Below, one piece after another: positions 23,695-34,814 of a stretch of 37,402 nt of DNA. The position numbers were made by a program, and so were the translations under genes. The notes below the pieces were generated by a model, which saw nothing but the letters and a program-made list of their open reading frames with translations, had not been told where the DNA came from and made no database searches. The DNA lies in contig JADCJJ010000634.1 of NCBI GenBank assembly GCA_020247085.1, positions 1-37,402 of the forward strand, written 5' to 3'. Source of the DNA: Myxococcaceae bacterium (GTDB taxonomy: Bacteria; Myxococcota; Myxococcia; Myxococcales; Myxococcaceae). Position 1 is the stretch's first letter; every line of letters starts with the position of its first letter.

Positions 23695-25371
23695 ATGGCC
23701 TCGTCGCAAGAAGAGACGGTGCGGCTCCGGGAGCGGCCTGCCCTCGAGGGCCGAAGCCGGCGGCTTCGCCTCGTGGTGGTGAACGAGGCCGGGTCGTCGT
23801 CGCATGCGCTGCCGGCGACGGGCGCGGTGGTGCTGGGTCGGGGCGACGACGCGACGCTCCGCCTCGACGACGCGGCGGCCTCGCGCCGGCACGCGGTGCT
23901 GCACCTCGGCCCGACGGTCACGCTCGAGGACCTGGGCTCGGCGAACGGCACGACGGTGCGCGGCCGGCGGCTGACGTCGGGAGCGCTCGTCGAGGTGCAG
24001 CCCGGAGACGCGATCGAGCTCGGCACGACCCTGGCGGTGCTGCAGACCGACGAGCTGTCGGGGAGCACCACCCCGTGGACGCTGGTGACGCACGCCCGCT
24101 TCCTCGAGGTGATGAAGGCGACGAGGCCGCCGTTCGGTGTCGTGCGGGTGCAGGTGCTCGCGGCTCCGGGCGTGGCGCAGCGGGCGCTGTCGGCGGTGCT
24201 GTCGCCGCACGACACGGTGGCGTCGTTCGGCCCGGGACAGTTCGAGGTGGTGCTCCCGGGGCGTGGCGCCGAGGCCACCATGAAGGCGATGGAGGCGGTG
24301 TCGGCCCGCCTGGTGGCCGAGGGTGCGCGGGTTCGGGCGGGGTGCGCGAGCGCGCCGGTCGACGGCACCGACGCCGACCAGTTGCTGGCCGCCTGCGTCA
24401 GCCCGACGACGCCGCCGACCGCCGGCTTCGTCGTGCGCGACGACGCGATGCTGTCGATCAGCCGCTTGATGGACAAGGTGGCGCCCAGCCTCATCAACGT
24501 GCTGCTGCTGGGCGAGACGGGGGTCGGGAAAGAGGTGCTCGCCGCCGAGGTACACCGGCGCTCGAAGCGCGCGGCGGGACCGTTCGTGAAGCTCAACTGC
24601 GCGGCCTTGACCGAGTCGCTCCTCGAGAGTGAGCTCTTCGGGCACGAGAAGGGCGCGTTCACCGGCGCGCTGAAGCAGAAGCCCGGCCTGCTCGAGACCG
24701 CGAAGGGCGGTACGGTGTTCCTCGACGAGATCGGTGAGCTGCCCGAGGTACTCCAGGCCAAGCTCCTGCGGGTGCTCGAGGAGCGGAAGGTCTTGCGGGT
24801 CGGCGGCACCACGCCCGAGCCCATCGACGCGCGCTTCGTCTTCGCGACCAACCGCGACCTCGAGGCCGAGGTCGAGCGCGGCGCGTTCCGGCGTGATCTG
24901 TTCTTCCGCATCAACGGCATCTCGATCGCCATCCCCCCGCTCCGGGAGCGCGTGGGTGAGATCGAGCCGCTCGCGCGGCAGTTCCTCGCAGTGGCCTGCG
25001 CGCGAGACGAGCGGCCGGTGCCCGAAGTGACGCCCGAGGCGCTGGCGCTGCTGAAGGCGTGGCCCTGGCCGGGGAACGTTCGCGAGCTCAAGAACGTCAT
25101 CGAGCGGGCGGTGCTGCTCGCCAGCGGGAGCGCCCTCGGTCCCGACGCCCTCGCCATCGACGGTCACGAGGCGCCCCCGCGGGCGTCGAGCGGGCTCGGG
25201 CTGAAGGACGAGCGCGAGGCGGCCGAGCGGCGCGCGGTGCTCGAGGCGCTCGAGAGGACGGGCGGGAACCAGACGAAGGCCGCCGAGCTGCTGGGCATCT
25301 CACGGCGCACCCTGGTGAACCGGCTCACCGCCTACGGGCTGACGAAGCCCCGCAAGCGCCCGGGCGCGTAG
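23695..25371 (+). CDS. FHA-domain sigma-54-dependent activator with cyclase-like middle domain
   Basis: 558 residues. N-terminal FHA domain (about 27-117) with [14 protein letters not shown] (63-66) and GSANGT (81-86), which binds phosphothreonine. A middle domain (about 126-235) has [18 protein letters not shown] and [18 protein letters not shown], resembling a GGDEF or class III cyclase fold without the catalytic loop. The AAA+ domain follows: Walker A GETGVGKE (273-280), GAFTGA (320-325), Walker B VFLDE (341-345), and R-finger segment RRDLFFRI. A Fis-type HTH ends the protein ([21 protein letters not shown]). It should open sigma-54 promoters in response to phosphorylation by a Ser/Thr kinase. 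The start is 5 nt after the small membrane gene, and the kinase gene follows 80 nt downstream. Confidence 0.95.
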
Positions 25372-25451
25372 GCGAGCGACCGCAAAGGCCTCCCGCGCAC
25401 GGGGACGGGGCCCCTCGACCGTGCTCCCAACCTGTTACAACCAGGCGCAGC

Positions 25452-28400
25452 ATGCCCGACGCTCCCCGACCACCGGGCTTCCCCCTCACGGCGCGCTACC
25501 AGTACGTGCGGGAGCTGGGCGTCGGCGGCATGGGCGTCGTGTACGAGGCCATCGACACCGAGCGCGGCGACCGGCGCGTGGCGCTGAAGGTGCTCCAGGG
25601 CCACGACGCCGACGCCATCGCGCGCCTCAAGCGGGAGTTCCGGTCGCTCCACGACGTTCGCCACCCGAACCTCGTCTCGCTGTACGAGCTCACTGCCACC
25701 GGCGACACCTGGTTCTTCACGCTCGAGCTCGTCGAGGGCGTCGAGTTCCTCGAGTGGGTGCGGCCCTCGGCGTCACCGGTGCGCCCCTCCGCGGCCCCCA
25801 CCGCCGCGCTCGACGTCACCGTGCGCGCGAAGAGGCCGGCGGCGTCGCGGGTCGACCGGCCGCGCCTCGAGGCGGCGTTCCGGCAGCTCGCCGAGGGCGT
25901 CGCCTTCCTGCACGCGAACGGCCGGGTGCACCGAGATCTCAAGCCCTCGAACGTCCTCGTCACGAGTGAGGGGCGGGTCGTCATTCTCGACTTCGGCCTC
26001 GTCGTCGACTTCGGGGGGCCGACGAGCCTCACCGAGGCCCAGGGCAACGCCATCGTCGGCACCGTCGCCTACATGGCCCCGGAGCAGGTCGCCTCGGCGC
26101 CGCTCGGCCCGCCGTGCGACTGGTACGCCGTCGGCGTCATGCTCTTCCAGGCGCTCACCGGCCGGCTCCCCTTCGAGGGGCCGCCCGTCGCCGTGATGCT
26201 CGACAAGCAGCGGCGCCCGGCCCCGCGCCCGACGGCTTCGACCACCGACGTCCCCGACGCGCTCGAGGCCCTGTGTGTTGGGCTGCTGCGCATCGAGCCC
26301 GCGGAGCGCCCGGACGCCAGCACGGTGCTGGAGGCGTTCGGCGCGGCGAGCCGGCCGGCCCCGGTGCGCACGCTCGTGGGGCGCGACGCCGAGCTGGCCG
26401 TGCTGCTGCGCGCCTTCGAGCACACGCGCACCGAGGGGCCGCGGGTGGTTCGGGTGCAGGGCCCACCGGGAATCGGCAAGACGGCGCTCCTGCGCGCCTT
26501 CGCCGACCGGCTCGACGAGGCCGGCGCCGTCGTGCTCTCGGGACGATGCCACGAGCGCGAGTCCGTGCCCTTCAAGGCCATCGACCCGATCATCGACGCC
26601 CTCACACGGGCGCTCGCCGCGATGGCCCCCGAGCGGGTCGACGCCATTCGGCCGCGCGACGCCCGGCTGCTGACGCAGATGTTCCCCGTCTTGAGCCGCG
26701 TGCCCTCGTTCCGCGAGGCGCCGGCCCGCGACGTGGTCGACCCGCTCGAGCGTCGGCGCCGCGCCGTCCTCGCCCTGAGGGAGCTCTTCGAGCGGCTGGG
26801 GGAGCGGGTGCCGCTGGTGGTGCTGGTCGATGACGCACAGTGGGGCGACGCCGACTCCATCGCCCTGATGGAGGCGCTGCTTCGGCCCCCGGAGCCGCCC
26901 ACGGTACTGGTCGTCACCTCGATCTGCGACGACGGGCCCGCGCTGCCCCCCGGAACGGTGCCCGTCGAGCTGCTTTCGGTCGGGCCGCTCGCCCTCGAGG
27001 CGGCGCGCGCCATCGCTCTCACGGCCGGCATCGCCAAGGAGCGGGCGAGCGCGCTGGCGGCCGAGGCCCGAGGCAACCCGCTCCTGCTGGTGCAGTTGCT
27101 CGAGTCGTCGGGCGAGGGAGAGGTGACGGTCGAGGGGCTGTGGCGTCGGAAGCTCGAGCGGCTCGCGCCCGAGGCTCTGGCCGTCATGCGGGCCGTCGCC
27201 GTCGCCGGCGCGCCGCTCGACGCCCAGCTCGCGCTCGAGGTCGCCCAGGTCGCCGCCCGGCACGCCGACGTCGTGCAGCAGCTCGCGGGCCACCACCTGG
27301 TGCGCATGCTCCCCGATGAGCGGCGCCTCGAGCCGTGGCACGAGGGGCTGCGCGCCGTCGTGGCCGGGACGCTCGACGCCGACGCGGTGCGGGGGCTCCA
27401 TGGGCGGCTCGCGTCCGTGCTGGCGTCGCACCCCGATGCCGGGCTCGAGGCCATCGCCAACCACTGGCTGGCCGCGGGGCAGGGCGACCAGGCCGCCGAG
27501 GCGATGCTGCTGGCCGCCGAGCGCAGCCGCGAGAAGCTGGCGTTCGCGCGGGCCGCGACGCTGTACTGCCGGGCGCTCGAGCTGCTGCCGCCCGACGAGC
27601 GACGCCGGGCGGGTGTCACGCTCTCGATGAGCCACTGCCTCGCCAGCGCTGGCCAGGGCAAGGCGGCGGCCGACGCATTCCTGGGCCTGGCGCGGGCGCC
27701 TGACATCGACGTGGGCCAGCGCCTCGAGCTGCAGCGGCTTGCGGCTGAGCAGTTGCTGGTCTCGGGGCACGTCGACGAGGGCGTCGCTGCGCTGTCGGGC
27801 GTGCTGTCGGAGCTGGGCATGACGCTGGCGAAGACGCCCTCGGGCGCGATGGGGGCGCTGCTGGTTCGCCGCGCGCACCTCGCGATGCGCGGGCTGTCGT
27901 TCGACGAGCGCGCGGCCGCGCAGGTCGACCCGCGGCTGCTGGGGCGCATCGACGCCTGCTGGTCGGTCGCCGTCGGGCTGGGCATGGTCGATACTATCCG
28001 CGGGGCGTCATTTCAGACGCGACAGCTGCTGCTGGCCCTCGACGCCGGCGAGCCGTGGCGGGTGGCGCGGGCGCTCGCGGCCGAGGCCGCCTTCGTCGCG
28101 ACGGAAGGGCACCCGGCCGAGGGGCGGGCGAGGGCCCTCGTCGCCAGCGCGCGGTCGCTCTGTGAGCGGGTCGGTGACGTGCGCCTGCGGGGCGTGGTCA
28201 CGTTCTGCGAGGGGCTGACGCGCTTCCTCGTCGGAGACTTCCGCGAGGCGCGCGCGCGGGTGGCCGAGGCCGAGGGGCAGCTGCGCGAGGCGGGGCTCGG
28301 TGTGTCATGGGAAGCGGCGAGCGCCCGCCTCTTCTCCATCTGGTCGCTCTTCTACCTGGGTGAGTTCTCCGAGGTGTCTCGCCGGGTGCCGGCGCTGACG

Positions 28401-29042
28401 AGAGACGCCACGAGCCGAGGCGATCGCTACGCGGTGACCAGCCTCAGCGTCGGGTTGGCGACCGTGTCACGCCTGGCTGCCGGTGCTCCGGCCGAGGCCC
28501 GCGCGGCCGTGGCCGACGCGATGGCGGCGTGGCCGTCGAAGGGCTTCCACTTTCAGCACTACTGGGCGGCGCTGTCCGAGGGCTTGATCGGCCTGTACGA
28601 GGACCGGCCGGAGCCGGCGCTGGAGCGCCTGTGCGCGGCGTGGCCGGCGATGGCGCGCGCGCAGTTGCTGCGCATTCAGAACGTGCGCGTCGAGGCGTGG
28701 TCGCTCAGGGGGCGCTTGGCGATCGCGAGCCGGCAGCCGGAGGAGGTCCGGCGGTCCCTGCGGGCGCTGCGCGGGGAGCGCGTCGAGTGGGCACAAGCCC
28801 AGGCCCGCGTTCTCGAGGCGGCACTGGAGCCGCGCCGCAGCGCCGCGGTGCTCGCGAGCGCCATCGGGGCGTTCGAGCGGCAGGGCCTGGCGGCGTTCGC
28901 CGAGGCGACCCGCCTGCGGCTCGGCGCGTTGATGCCGGGCGACGCCGGGCGGGAGAAGAGGCAGGCCGCCGCGGGCTGGTTCGAGCGGCAGTCGGTCCGC
29001 GACCCTGAGGCGTTCGCCCGGGTGCTGGCCCCGGTGGGGTGA
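25452..29042 (+). CDS. Ser/Thr protein kinase with AAA-type ATPase and TPR-like C-terminus
   Basis: 1196 residues. Kinase domain at about 18-300: Gly loop GVGGMGVVYEA (23-33), Lys46 in VALKVL, HRDLKPSN (160-167), DFG (180-182) and the APE-like APEQ (209-212), so active. A small insertion (about 104-135) separates hinge and C-lobe. Next an ATPase of the STAND/MalT type: Walker A GPPGIGKT (337-344) and Walker B VVLVDDAQW (455-464). The remaining ~600 residues are Ala/Leu/Arg-rich helical pairs, like TPR or similar repeats. This kinase-ATPase-repeat layout is known in myxobacteria (Pkn-type). No membrane span. ATG at 25452 chosen because the kinase begins there. Convergent with the TIGR02996-type gene; partner candidates are the two FHA regulators beside it. 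Confidence 0.95.
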   Translation: MPDAPRPPGFPLTARYQYVRELGVGGMGVVYEAIDTERGDRRVALKVLQGHDADAIARLKREFRSLHDVRHPNLVSLYELTATGDTWFFTLELVEGVEFLEWVRPSASPVRPSAAPTAALDVTVRAKRPAASRVDRPRLEAAFRQLAEGVAFLHANGRVHRDLKPSNVLVTSEGRVVILDFGLVVDFGGPTSLTEAQGNAIVGTVAYMAPEQVASAPLGPPCDWYAVGVMLFQALTGRLPFEGPPVAVMLDKQRRPAPRPTASTTDVPDALEALCVGLLRIEPAERPDASTVLEAFGAASRPAPVRTLVGRDAELAVLLRAFEHTRTEGPRVVRVQGPPGIGKTALLRAFADRLDEAGAVVLSGRCHERESVPFKAIDPIIDALTRALAAMAPERVDAIRPRDARLLTQMFPVLSRVPSFREAPARDVVDPLERRRRAVLALRELFERLGERVPLVVLVDDAQWGDADSIALMEALLRPPEPPTVLVVTSICDDGPALPPGTVPVELLSVGPLALEAARAIALTAGIAKERASALAAEARGNPLLLVQLLESSGEGEVTVEGLWRRKLERLAPEALAVMRAVAVAGAPLDAQLALEVAQVAARHADVVQQLAGHHLVRMLPDERRLEPWHEGLRAVVAGTLDADAVRGLHGRLASVLASHPDAGLEAIANHWLAAGQGDQAAEAMLLAAERSREKLAFARAATLYCRALELLPPDERRRAGVTLSMSHCLASAGQGKAAADAFLGLARAPDIDVGQRLELQRLAAEQLLVSGHVDEGVAALSGVLSELGMTLAKTPSGAMGALLVRRAHLAMRGLSFDERAAAQVDPRLLGRIDACWSVAVGLGMVDTIRGASFQTRQLLLALDAGEPWRVARALAAEAAFVATEGHPAEGRARALVASARSLCERVGDVRLRGVVTFCEGLTRFLVGDFREARARVAEAEGQLREAGLGVSWEAASARLFSIWSLFYLGEFSEVSRRVPALTRDATSRGDRYAVTSLSVGLATVSRLAAGAPAEARAAVADAMAAWPSKGFHFQHYWAALSEGLIGLYEDRPEPALERLCAAWPAMARAQLLRIQNVRVEAWSLRGRLAIASRQPEEVRRSLRALRGERVEWAQAQARVLEAALEPRRSAAVLASAIGAFERQGLAAFAEATRLRLGALMPGDAGREKRQAAAGWFERQSVRDPEAFARVLAPVG

Positions 29043-29148: not shown

Positions 29149-30036
29149 TCACGTCACGGCGCGCGGGGGCGTGAAGCGCCTCAGGTGGTCGAAGCGGTCG
29201 GCCGTCTCTGCGAGGATCTGCGCGAACGCCGGCAGCGGCTCGACCCCGAGGTGCAGCTCCTCGAGCTGCCGGACGAGGCCGCAGGCCGCGAGGTCTTCGA
29301 GGTGCTGCGGCCAGAGGCTCCCGGCGAGGGCGAGCGCCCGGAGCGAGGGCAGCGTGTGGCCCGACAGCACGTCGATCGGCCACCGCGCGGGGCTGGCGCG
29401 CAGCCCCAGCACGAGGCCGCGGAGCCTCGGCAGCCGCAGCGTCGAAAGCTCGGCGGCGATCTCGTCACCGGGGCGCGCGAAGGCGCTCCAGGTGAGGCTC
29501 TCGAGGGTCGGGTGCGCGAGGCCAGCCAGCGAGAGCTGGCCCTGCGCGGAGAGGGTGGTGAGGCGGGGCAGTCGCGCCACGACGGCGGCGAGGGGCGCGG
29601 GCGTGGTGCGCTCACCCGAGGCGACGAGCTCGAGCTCGCGCACCGTCACGGGCAGCCGCGCGAGGGCGTCGAGCGCGGGCTCCTCGTCGAGGCTCCACCA
29701 GCGGACGGCTCGGAGCGCGCGCGCGGCGGGCTCGTCGAGCAGCTCAGCCAGCGCGCCCCCGGCTCGCCGCGTGTAGCGCACGCCCGCCAGCAGGCCGGTC
29801 GCCGCCCAGGACAAGGCGTGGCCGGGGTAGCGCGTCTCGAAGGCCTGCTGGCGGCGGAGCACCTCGAGCGTGAGCGCGACGTCGCCCGGCTTCCGCGTGA
29901 GCTCGAGCGCGAGGCGAAGGTGTTCGCCCAGCGGGTCGCCCAACTCGAGCAGCTGGTCGGCCAGCACGTCGACGCACTTGACGTCCTCCGGGGCCTCGCA
30001 GACCTGTGCCCAGGCGAGCTCCAGCGCGTCGGGCAT
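29149..30036 (-). CDS. TIGR02996-type protein, LRR-like
   Basis: 295 residues. The first 45 residues (AWAQVCEAPEDVKCVDVLAD then QLLELGDPLGEHLRLALEL) match the TIGR02996 repeat-companion domain found in many myxobacterial and planctomycete proteins. The rest consists of Leu-rich segments spaced by about 22-26 residues (LEELHLGVEPL, LRALALAGSLWP, RLPRLTTLSAQG, ARLPVTVRELELVAS), so an irregular leucine-rich-repeat solenoid is likely. The start is ATG at 30036; an upstream ATG-like start adds 19 residues of low-quality text. It follows the FHA regulator on the same strand by about 100 nt, so it may be in its transcript. Function unknown; likely protein binding. Confidence 0.85.
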   Translation of the reverse strand: MPDALELAWAQVCEAPEDVKCVDVLADQLLELGDPLGEHLRLALELTRKPGDVALTLEVLRRQQAFETRYPGHALSWAATGLLAGVRYTRRAGGALAELLDEPAARALRAVRWWSLDEEPALDALARLPVTVRELELVASGERTTPAPLAAVVARLPRLTTLSAQGQLSLAGLAHPTLESLTWSAFARPGDEIAAELSTLRLPRLRGLVLGLRASPARWPIDVLSGHTLPSLRALALAGSLWPQHLEDLAACGLVRQLEELHLGVEPLPAFAQILAETADRFDHLRRFTPPRAVT

Positions 30037-30139
30037 CAGCGCGCCGGTCCCGCGGGGGAGAGGGGCCGCGCGAGGGCCTGGCCGCCCGCCCACGGAGGCT
30101 GGCGGTGGGAAGGCGCTTCTGCGCCCGGGTTGGCCCCGC

Positions 30140-31456
30140 TCAGCCGAGGCCCTCGGCGTTCTTGAGGTCCTTCAGGCGCAGGCCGTTCTTCTTCAAGAGC
30201 CGGTAGAGGCTCTGCATCGACAGGCGTGTCTTCTGCTCGGCGACCTGCATGTCGAAGTTCGACTGCTTCATCACCTCGGCGAAGTAATGCCGCTCGAAGT
30301 CGCCGGTCACCCGGTCTTTCGCTTCGTGGTACGGCAGCTTCGCGACCATCTCGATGAGGGTGGTGTGGTCGGTCTTGCGCTCGCCGGGCACCAAGAGCTC
30401 GAGCCAGCTCCGGTTGCCGGTCGCCTGCATGAGCGCGCCGCGCTCGAGAACGTTGCGCAGCTCGCGCACGTTCCCCGGCCACTCGTAGCCCTCGAGCAGC
30501 GACAGCGTCTGCGGCGAGAGGTCGAACGACGTCGACAGCCCCTTCGCGAGGTGCCGGGCGAGCAGGGGGATGTCGATCTTCCGGGTGCGCAGCGGCGGCA
30601 GGCGCACGCGAGCGACGGCGAGGCGGAAGAAGAGTTCTTGGCGGAAGCGCCCCTGCTGGGCCTCCTCGGTGAGGTTGCGCGACGTCGACGCGATGACACG
30701 CAGGTCGAGCCGCCGCGCGGGGTGCCCGGCCATGGCTGGCAGCTCCTTCGTCTCGAGCAGGCGCACCAGCCTCGGCTGGACGCTCGCCGGGAGCTCAGCC
30801 ACCTCGTCGAGGAACAGCGTGCCGTTCTTCGCCGCGGGGAAGGCGCCGTCGTCGCCGAAGAGCTCGCGGTCGGCGTTCTGGTCGGACAGCATGGCGCAGT
30901 CGAGCACCCGGAACGGCCCGTAGCGCTTGTTCGACAGCGCGTGGACGGCGCGGGCCGCCAGCTCCTTGCCGGTCCCCGTCTCGCCCTCGAGCAGCAGGTT
31001 CACGTCTTCTCGCGCGATACGACGCAGCTCCGCGAACACGATGCGCATCGCCTCCGACGTGCCGACGAGCTCGCCGAAGGTCTCGGCGTCGAGCAGCTCG
31101 AGCTCGGTCTCGCGGCTCTTGCGCTTCACCGACAGCTTCGTCTTGCCGAGGGCGATCTTATCGCCGGTGTCGATGAACGTCTGCACCACCTGCCGGCCCT
31201 CGATGAAGGTCCCGTTCCGGCTCTGCAGGTCGCGCAGCAGCAGACCACGCGAGGTGCGCTCGATCTCGAGGTGTCGACGGCTCACCGTCGTGTCAGTGAG
31301 GACGAGGTCGTTCGTAGCGTCGCTGCCCACGCGCACGAGCCCCTCGAGCGTCGTCACGCGCTTGCCCTTGTCGGGCCCCGACACGACCTCGACCGTCCAC
31401 TCCCGCACCGGCACCCGGCTGATGGCCTCGCCGGGCAGGGTGACGGACTCCGTCAT
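30140..31456 (-). CDS. FHA-domain AAA+ regulator lacking the GAFTGA motif
   Basis: About 438 residues from the ATG at 31456 (a GTG at 31471 would add five). Numbering here is from the GTG. FHA domain at 25-115 with RVGSDATNDL, SRRH (64-67) and SRNGT (84-88). AAA+ domain: Walker A GETGTGKE (163-170), Walker B GTLFLDEV (217-224) and R-finger segment RQELFFRL are intact, but the loop between them reads ELFGDDGAFPAAKNG where sigma-54 activators have [13 protein letters not shown] and ten more residues. The loop that contacts sigma-54 is shortened and changed. The C-terminus has a Fis-like HTH (QKTRLSMQSLYRLLKKNGL). It lies 55 nt downstream of the lipid-kinase-like gene on the same strand. Confidence 0.93.
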   Translation of the reverse strand: MTESVTLPGEAISRVPVREWTVEVVSGPDKGKRVTTLEGLVRVGSDATNDLVLTDTTVSRRHLEIERTSRGLLLRDLQSRNGTFIEGRQVVQTFIDTGDKIALGKTKLSVKRKSRETELELLDAETFGELVGTSEAMRIVFAELRRIAREDVNLLLEGETGTGKELAARAVHALSNKRYGPFRVLDCAMLSDQNADRELFGDDGAFPAAKNGTLFLDEVAELPASVQPRLVRLLETKELPAMAGHPARRLDLRVIASTSRNLTEEAQQGRFRQELFFRLAVARVRLPPLRTRKIDIPLLARHLAKGLSTSFDLSPQTLSLLEGYEWPGNVRELRNVLERGALMQATGNRSWLELLVPGERKTDHTTLIEMVAKLPYHEAKDRVTGDFERHYFAEVMKQSNFDMQVAEQKTRLSMQSLYRLLKKNGLRLKDLKNAEGLG

Positions 31457-31511
31457 TTCAGGAAGGTTCACGAGCGGCGAGTGTAGCGCGCGGCGCTCGC
31501 GGGAGAAGCGG

Positions 31512-32597
31512 TCAGTTCGCCGCGCCGCCGAAGTCGCATAGCTCGATGGACTCGGGCGCCAGCTGCACGCGCAGCTCGTCGCGGTACCCCTCGGCGTCGC
31601 CGGCGAGCTGGAACGGCATCGGGCGTGAGAAGCGCACCGTCACGTCGCTCGCCAGGAAGTCGTGCAGGCCTTCGGGGAACCAGGTGCCCTTCCACAGGCC
31701 CGGCAGGTTCGAGAGAATCTGCGTCGTGGGCAGGGTGCCGACGCGCAGGTCGAACATGCCCCGGCGCTTGCCGGCGAACGGGAACATCTTCAGCTCGTAG
31801 CCGTAGAACGGCACGGTACCGGCGGCCGCCATCATGAGCGGGCCCCGATAGAGCGTCTGACCGGCCGAGAACGTCTCGACGGGCGCGCCCGACGGCCCCA
31901 TGCGCCACGCCACCGGGCCCTCGTTCACGACCTCGCAGTCCACCGAGTTCGAGTTCGCGAGGTAGTAGGGCACCGTCTTGAAGGCCACCGACGTGAAGTA
32001 GCCGCCCGGGCCCGACATCAACTTCGCGAACGGCCCCTGAGCGAAGGTGTTCTTCACCGCGATGTAGTCGTTCAGCAACTGCCCGTCGACGCCCAGCCCG
32101 GCGAAGGGCGCCCGCTTACCGTCGACGAGGAGCAGGTCGAGCGCCTTCGTCCCGGGCACCTCGCCCGACCGCGCCCGCAGCACGTCGTCGAGGAAGCCGT
32201 CACCGCGCGCCCCCGAGGCCTTCACGTAGGACGCGACCGAGTTGCCCGTGCCGAGCTTGAGCACCCCGAAGCGCGGCGTCGGGGTGGGGTGGTGCACCCG
32301 GCGCCGTGCCACCTCAGAGAGCACCTCGTTCACGAAGCACGCGACCGTGCCGTCACCGCCGCCGAGGAACACCGTGTGGTACCCGTGATCGACCACCGAC
32401 TGCGCGATGCGCCGCGCGTCGAACTCGGAGCGCGAGAGGTAGAGGTCTCCCGACGGCACGACGTGCGACAGCGAGCGCACGATGCGGCTCGTCACTCGGC
32501 GCGCGTTCGCGTTCAACAGCACGGCCACCCGGTGATCGATGTCCAGCCGAGGGGGCACCTGCTCGACCGGCGTGCTGCGATAGGGCTGAACCCACAT
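31512..32597 (-). CDS. Diacylglycerol/sphingosine-kinase-like protein
   Basis: 361 residues with the DAGK catalytic signatures: VAVLLNANARRV at about 25-35, the nucleotide-binding GGGDGT (79-84), and LGTGNSVASY (115-124). It probably phosphorylates a lipid such as diacylglycerol or a sphingoid base at the membrane; the substrate is not readable. The start is ATG (MWVQPYRS) because GGAGG sits 8 nt upstream; the ATG at 32663 has no ribosome site. It heads a likely operon with the FHA regulator and the TIGR02996-type gene, and is divergent from dnaK. Confidence 0.92.
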   Translation of the reverse strand: MWVQPYRSTPVEQVPPRLDIDHRVAVLLNANARRVTSRIVRSLSHVVPSGDLYLSRSEFDARRIAQSVVDHGYHTVFLGGGDGTVACFVNEVLSEVARRRVHHPTPTPRFGVLKLGTGNSVASYVKASGARGDGFLDDVLRARSGEVPGTKALDLLLVDGKRAPFAGLGVDGQLLNDYIAVKNTFAQGPFAKLMSGPGGYFTSVAFKTVPYYLANSNSVDCEVVNEGPVAWRMGPSGAPVETFSAGQTLYRGPLMMAAAGTVPFYGYELKMFPFAGKRRGMFDLRVGTLPTTQILSNLPGLWKGTWFPEGLHDFLASDVTVRFSRPMPFQLAGDAEGYRDELRVQLAPESIELCDFGGAAN

Positions 32598-32798
32598 AGT
32601 GTCGGCCTCCGTCAGCGCCGGCAGGGTCCCCAGGCCCCCGGGCTGCGTCAGCGTCACAAGCATGTGGCTTGCCAGCCTGCGTCGAGATGGAAGGCCTCGG
32701 TTTTTCGAGGGTTTTGACGTCGACCAAGCGCCGCGCTGGCACCTGTCGGTGGCGGTCGGTGCGAAGCCGCTTACGCGCACCCGGCGCGTTCAACGCGA

Positions 32799-32900: not shown

Positions 32901-34814
<1,914 letters not shown>

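Follow-up and report, generated by a model that had tools for sequence, protein, structure and literature searches.

The MXAN_4899 family of FHA/AAA+ regulators in Myxococcaceae lacks the GAFTGA sigma-54 contact loop and conserves its catalytic residues

Introduction

The L1 loop of sigma-54 enhancer-binding proteins (EBPs) encloses the N-terminus of sigma-54 and makes the power stroke, according to the passages cited from PMC12054792. EBP homologues without a normal GAFTGA motif have been described. NtrC of Rhodobacter capsulatus and Caulobacter has an L1 deletion in an intact AAA+ domain and is reported at sigma-70 promoters in the part of PMC10274813 cited here, and TyrR, DhaR, HupR, VpsR and YplP are named as homologues with a defective GAFTGA in a passage of PMC3162934. 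The protein described below shares with them the loss of GAFTGA and the retention of the AAA+ domain. However, the NtrC proteins carry a receiver domain instead of an FHA domain, serve nitrogen control and lost the loop in a separate event, and the other five have different sensory domains and regulons.

The literature regards MXAN_4899 of Myxococcus xanthus as a sigma-54 EBP; a passage of PMC12773805 gives its length as 459 aa and calls it sigma-54-interacting. Papers report a role for it in the regulation of secondary metabolism and development. As relayed in passages of PMC7910581, PMC4902038 and PMC4880591, Volz et al. (2012) found that natural-product promoters are bound by HsfA and MXAN4899, which act as hetero-oligomers. 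The review PMC4902038 states in the cited part that MXAN_4899 raises or inhibits myxovirescin production according to nutrition. HsfA activates the heat-shock gene lonD (passage of PMC9109919). In evolved M. xanthus clones, MXAN_4899 carries a frameshift from residue 444, and the role of the affected helix is given as unknown (passage of PMC12773805). The literature passages naming MXAN4899 make no mention of GAFTGA, and the relevant passages of PMC3162934 and PMC12316311, which mention GAFTGA with Myxococcus, do not name MXAN_4899; we do not claim novelty in print.

Results

Domain organization of P0001

The window, which is the whole 37,402-nucleotide stretch of Myxococcaceae DNA analysed here, encodes the protein P0001. 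As shown in Table 1, its domains are an FHA domain, an AAA+ domain of the sigma-54 activator type, a lid (AAA_lid_14) and a C-terminal helical DNA-binding region. The Pfam scores were 57.6 bits for FHA (residues 46-109) and 136.3 bits for Sigma54_activat (residues 135-289; cut-off 20.2), versus 217.8 bits for Sigma54_activat in P0002, the protein encoded at 23.7 kb. HTH_8 (Fis-type) matched P0002 and not P0001, whose model has helices at residues 376-398, 403-410, 414-423 and 428-437. The AlphaFold2 model of P0001 (mean pLDDT 73.5, pTM 0.60) matched the AAA+ structures of GtrR (Z 23.0, rmsd 2.6, 213 aligned), FleQ (Z 22.2), NtrX (22.1), PspF (21.2) and VpsR (20.1); VpsR and NtrX are among its closest solved structures. 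FHA structures also matched, for example GarA (Z 16.5).

Table 1. Features of the P0001 locus in the window
Feature	Position	Strand	Remarks
FHA-EBP with intact GAFTGA (P0002)	23695..25371	+	
GAFTGA-less FHA/AAA+/HTH regulator (P0001)	30140..31471	-	GTG start, 443 aa, orthologue of M. xanthus MXAN_4899
C-terminal DNA-binding domain with SMQSLYRLLKKNGLRLKDLKNAEGL	30143..30331	-	Best-conserved part of the family
Sensor II PGNVRELR	30455..30478	-	Arg336 in 58/58
AAA+ sigma-54 activation domain, PF00158, residues 135-289	30605..31069	-	Score reduced
R-fingers Arg277 and Arg283	30623..30643	-	
Walker B TLFLDE	30803..30820	-	Asp222 in 58/58, Glu223 in 57/58
Site of the lost L1 loop, ELFG-DD-GAFPAAKNG, residues 203-217	30821..30865	-	12 residues including GAFTGA deleted between ELFG and GAF
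Walker A GETGTGKE	30962..30985	-	Lys169 in 58/58 sequences
FHA domain, residues 46-109	31145..31336	-	Ser64, His67 and Asn86 kept; Gly-Arg position is Gly-Ser
Diacylglycerol-kinase-like gene	31512..32693	-	Directly upstream of P0001; kept in the genus
dnaK	32901..34814	+	Divergent; adjacent in the window's genus, with groESL in this place in other genera

The FHA Ser, His and Asn are retained in all 57 orthologues that cover these positions. In the same 57, the Arg of the Gly-Arg pair, which we take to be a phosphothreonine contact, is replaced by Ser, Thr or Gly; its replacement is also common among myxobacterial FHA-EBPs that keep GAFTGA. Control of P0001 by a Ser/Thr kinase through the FHA domain, as the preliminary description suggested, is plausible.

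Loss of the L1 loop

GAFTGA is not present in P0001, and Walker A, Walker B, both R-fingers (R277/R283) and sensor II are intact, as the preliminary description had stated for the loop, the Walker motifs and the R-fingers. The same description held that the loop was replaced by GDDGAFPAAKNG and shortened by about ten residues. P0001 was aligned with 53 other EBP rows. Its GAFPAAKNGT aligns with the canonical GAFERANGGT segment (GxFExAxGGT) that precedes Walker B, so GDDGAFPAAKNG is the normal pre-Walker-B segment after a deletion and not a replacement; the paralogue alignment likewise rules it out as a remnant of GAFTGA. The region reads ELFG-DD-GAFPAAKNGT-LFLDE, and the gap between ELFG and the pre-Walker-B segment falls from 14 residues in the closest GAFTGA-bearing paralogues to 2 (DD). 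Counting from a conserved Cys to Walker B gives 31 residues for P0001 versus 43 for 31 of 31 measurable GAFTGA-bearing rows (the other 22 of the 53 non-target rows were either unmeasurable or without the motif), indicating that 12 in-frame residues, the whole L1 tip, are gone. Thus the shortening stands, at 12 residues instead of about ten.

Six other genomes of the same genus carry the same 12-residue deletion, which rules out a sequencing error. A pseudogene was rejected as well, since the frame and the catalytic residues are conserved across 29 other genomes. In the structure prediction that had been proposed for the loop, the shortened connection was modelled confidently (pLDDT 88, 88 and 93 for the blocks in residues 191-220); in the model of the M. 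xanthus orthologue, residues 210-217 fall below pLDDT 50.

The window genome contains one rpoN, and 25 or more of its EBPs carry GAFTGA or a near variant of it. We took 30 PF00158 loci out of 39 rows from this genome, and 25 of the 30 have GAFTGA, GSFTGA or GAFTDA. Only the window gene has lost GAFTGA while keeping the catalytic motifs; in two further loci (L029, L030) the loop was not covered. Pseudo-EBPs of another kind are represented by L027 and L028 (contigs C518 and C462), with a degenerate L1 and no R-fingers, where GAFTGA is lost along with Walker A (GEPGTDHA and GEFGTGRL). An Asn to Asp change at the glutamate switch was rejected as a second hallmark of the family, since Asp is also found there in several GAFTGA-bearing EBPs from this genome.

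Distribution and conservation of the family

Searching 59 other genomes with the full-length sequence gave clear orthologues in 29, every one of them in Myxococcaceae (29 of 35 in that family), with scores of at least 445 bits versus 307 for the next class. With a C-terminal profile, 88 of 195 Myxococcota genomes were positive, again all Myxococcaceae (at least 123 bits versus a next best of 51). A second collection gave 49 loci whose titles include Myxococcus, Corallococcus, Archangium, Hyalangium, Pyxidicoccus and Citreicoccus; the record of L143 bears the title Comamonas sp. KCTC 72670.

From 79 loci, 58 distinct sequences were compared. GAFTGA is absent from all 58 (L058 included). The Cys-to-Walker-B spacing is 31, 34, 36, 40, 42 and 43 residues in 20, 1, 1, 3, 29 and 4 of them, respectively. 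The homologues with the same loop that the preliminary description had called for are among the 20 with the 12-residue deletion. Most of the others keep the length of the loop and fill it with sequence unrelated to GAFTGA, often acidic, such as GLRAGDGEDREAR in M. xanthus; HLRGALATSEGSSP in L044/L127 resembles a decayed GAFTGA. Besides the residues given in Table 1, the two R-fingers are kept in 57 (one Lys) and 58 of the 58. Mean pairwise identity reaches 0.81 in the C-terminal domain, its highest value, versus 0.71-0.73 in AAA+ and 0.70 in FHA. Since L1 is conserved neither in length nor in sequence, the region looks like one under relaxed constraint and not like a new contact loop. Judged by the alignment, the loop has decayed along different routes, deletion and acidic replacement, with the catalytic residues fixed.

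Relationship to a second loop-less clade

A tree of 70 rows was built with the loop masked. The P0001 clade (support 100/100) adjoins a second FHA-EBP clade of Myxococcaceae that has also lost GAFTGA (HDVS--SARPSARPGAFEEAEGG) and is the closest such clade, with GAFTGA-bearing relatives between the two. The GAFTGA label needs three changes, forced by the branches starred on the tree; a sister relation of the two loop-less clades has support 93/84, which is not decisive. The simplest reading is that GAFTGA was lost at least twice among Myxococcaceae FHA-EBPs, because its regain is unlikely. The second clade (L170, L173, L174, L176, L188-L197 and others) thus differs from that of P0001 in having its own separate loss on the tree. 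It ends in the C-terminus PRQSVHRMLRRLGI (PRQSVHRML). One member, L172, keeps GAFTGS, and the outgroups L168, L198 and L200 keep GAFTGA. L172, together with L175 (LSAFAQ), appears to be an intermediate in loop decay.

Identity with MXAN_4899

In M. xanthus AM003 (L166) the gene order is groES, groEL, glutaredoxin-like, c10, c5, P0001 orthologue, c6, smc. The orthologue has 459 aa, 456 of them counted from where the match begins and three more from the start codon. It is the fourth gene after groEL, and groEL1 is MXAN_4895 in the groESL operon (PMC9040617), which identifies it as MXAN_4899. By this comparison the window gene is the orthologue of MXAN_4899. The two proteins have the same domain order. 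They differ in the loop, which keeps its length with the acidic filler in MXAN_4899 and is deleted in the window copy, and in their neighbours, groESL and dnaK, respectively. Residues 444-459 of the M. xanthus protein lie in its last helix, in the near-invariant family stretch NGLRLKDLKNAEGL. The near-invariance from residue 444 onward supports a loss of function by the evolved frameshift.

Gene neighbourhood and promoter

Twenty loci were taken for the neighbourhood comparison, and in 16 of 16 outside the genus groEL lies upstream of the gene, with groES seen in 14. Upstream sequence of 3 kb or longer is available for 43 of the 49 named loci, and there we found groEL in 36, DnaK in 5, an Hsp70-like gene (40% identical) in 1 and none in 1; the other six have less than 3 kb. 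The linkage to groEL is a single inherited arrangement and not many independent cases. In the window genome, groESL is on a different contig without the gene, and no genes of the P0001 locus were found in the 2.6 kb downstream of that groEL. The neighbourhood is suggestive of a role in proteostasis.

Directly after P0001 in the window is a gene without a Pfam match (29149-30093). In several genera the P0001 orthologue is followed by a small gene of cluster c8 (L062:10181-10771 and seven more loci), which is missing from the window; this gene is presumably E1/ThiF-like. P0002 and the following Ser/Thr kinase with an AAA_16 domain at 25404-29042 (together 23695-29042, + strand) form a likely signalling pair, linked to P0001 in part of the genus.

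No sigma-54 promoter with at least 9 of 10 consensus positions was found upstream of the gene in 47 loci. A sigma-70-like pattern, TTG-(N3)-(16 to 19)-TAAA, composed after viewing the same sequences, was present in 26 of the 47 versus a mean of 0.06 in plain shuffles; it was not found in the window's genus. The conserved element in these 26 loci, TTGCCC-N18-TAAACA/TAAAGA, is probably a sigma-70-type promoter of the gene in Myxococcus, Corallococcus, Archangium and Hyalangium. A search by eye of the regions upstream of the P0001 gene in 20 loci gave nothing firm for an operator common to the groES, dnaK and P0001-type promoters.

Candidate partners

P0001 had been proposed as a possible antagonist of the activator at 23.7 kb. 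We searched 22 Myxococcaceae genomes, of which 19 have the P0001 gene, and a P0002 orthologue was present in 8 of these 19; G003, of the same genus and 89% complete, also lacks one. P0002 is therefore unsupported as a general partner, and P0001 as its dedicated antagonist. An antagonist role as such would be close to the published HsfA hetero-oligomers of the M. xanthus orthologue.

HsfA was placed in genome G028, from the genus with M. xanthus-like sequences, by its distance from the P0001 orthologue, which is about as expected for MXAN_536x. Two further marks agree with passages of PMC9109919: the candidate has Thr288, and the neighbouring kinase, which has an N-terminal receiver, has Gln97/Gln176, one residue off the published Gln98/Gln177. 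The identification is good but indirect. The window genome has an HsfA orthologue, L004, which is 81% identical (next best 46%) and has a full GSFTGA loop. Of 36 Myxococcaceae genomes, 30 have HsfA-like matches at E <= 1e-160: 27 of the 30 that carry the P0001 gene and 3 of the 6 that do not. Matches also occur outside the family. The three P0001-bearing genomes without a match at this cut-off are 78-92% complete. Because the two distributions do not coincide, this co-occurrence is no evidence of dependence.

Discussion

The missing sigma-54 contact loop together with the intact ATPase motifs indicates that P0001 is probably not an ordinary sigma-54 activator; because the L1 loop is absent, the protein alone should not open sigma-54 promoters. 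That the ATPase and DNA-binding parts are intact speaks for a functional regulator, with ATPase activity predicted from the conserved residues. Most likely, P0001 is a DNA-binding regulator switched by ATP which, without opening sigma-54 promoters by itself, acts at sigma-70-type promoters and/or in mixed rings with HsfA. The signal received by the FHA domain would probably be a phosphothreonine made by a Ser/Thr kinase. By binding and hydrolysing ATP, the AAA+ ring would, judging from its intact catalytic residues, still drive oligomerisation, and the near-invariant C-terminal domain would set the protein at a fixed promoter set. Activation or repression there would be direct, without pulling on sigma-54, and housekeeping promoters of the sigma-70 type would be the most likely sites of action; NtrC of R. 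capsulatus and Caulobacter is reported to work in this way.

Such direct regulation by an MXAN_4899-type protein, free of sigma-54 contact, has in our estimate about an even chance of being correct. It is favoured by the family-wide loss of the loop with catalytic residues kept, by the at least two losses on the tree, by the precedents of GAFTGA-less bEBPs at sigma-70 promoters (passages of PMC10274813 and PMC3162934), and by the report that MXAN_4899 both enhances and inhibits myxovirescin (passage of PMC4902038). Against it, the PF00158 match is still far above the cut-off, a Caulobacter NtrC without GAFTGA activated sigma-54 flagellar genes when mutated (passage of PMC12421884), and the reported HsfA hetero-oligomers fit a mixed ring at least as well. 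In a mixed ring the protein would enter the hexamers that a complete bEBP forms, in M. xanthus those of HsfA; a loopless subunit without a grip on sigma-54 would still pass on ATP-driven motion and bring its own DNA sites, and so brake, tune or redirect its partner at sigma-54 promoters. We hold this as a tentative possibility. The hetero-oligomers reported by Volz et al., L004 with its GSFTGA, the HsfA matches in most P0001-bearing genomes and the intact Walker motifs and subunit-interface R-fingers are all consistent with it, but HsfA also occurs in genomes without the P0001 gene and outside the family, three P0001-bearing genomes have no match, and the near-invariant DNA-binding domain suggests action at the protein's own sites. 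Direct regulation and mixed-ring modulation may operate together. A more specific proposal, which we regard as doubtful, is that the MXAN_4899 family lost its sigma-54 grip, kept the motor and the DNA address, and enters HsfA-type hexamers as a brake or tuner that couples FHA kinase signalling to a two-component activator; the proteostasis genes next to it would be possible targets.

Two other explanations concern the targets and the contact surface. The main targets might be the neighbouring groESL or dnaK, which would be compatible with a direct or a mixed-ring mechanism. The frequent groEL, DnaK and Hsp70-like neighbours, the move of the gene in the window's genus from groESL to dnaK, and the activation of lonD by HsfA all point this way; however, the groEL linkage was inherited once, the published targets are natural-product genes, and the control described for M. 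xanthus groEL involves HrcA, sigma-32 and MXAN_4468 (PMC9040617), so that we consider it unlikely. Far less probable still is an unorthodox sigma-54 activator in which another surface of the protein remodels the sigma-54 polymerase. The description of MXAN_4899 as sigma-54-interacting and the link between the mutated Caulobacter NtrC and sigma-54 genes speak for it, but the loop that encloses the sigma-54 N-terminus is missing and the family has no conserved substitute.

With the loop lost throughout this protein family of the predatory Myxococcaceae, the well-studied MXAN_4899 probably works otherwise than its name implies. If the whole family has lost sigma-54 contact, the published activation and inhibition and the HsfA hetero-oligomers need another mechanism. 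The family would also allow a direct test of the number of L1-bearing subunits that a bEBP ring requires, and it would be an example from nature in which the loop disappeared, at least twice among the FHA-EBPs of a single bacterial family, under full constraint on the ATPase.
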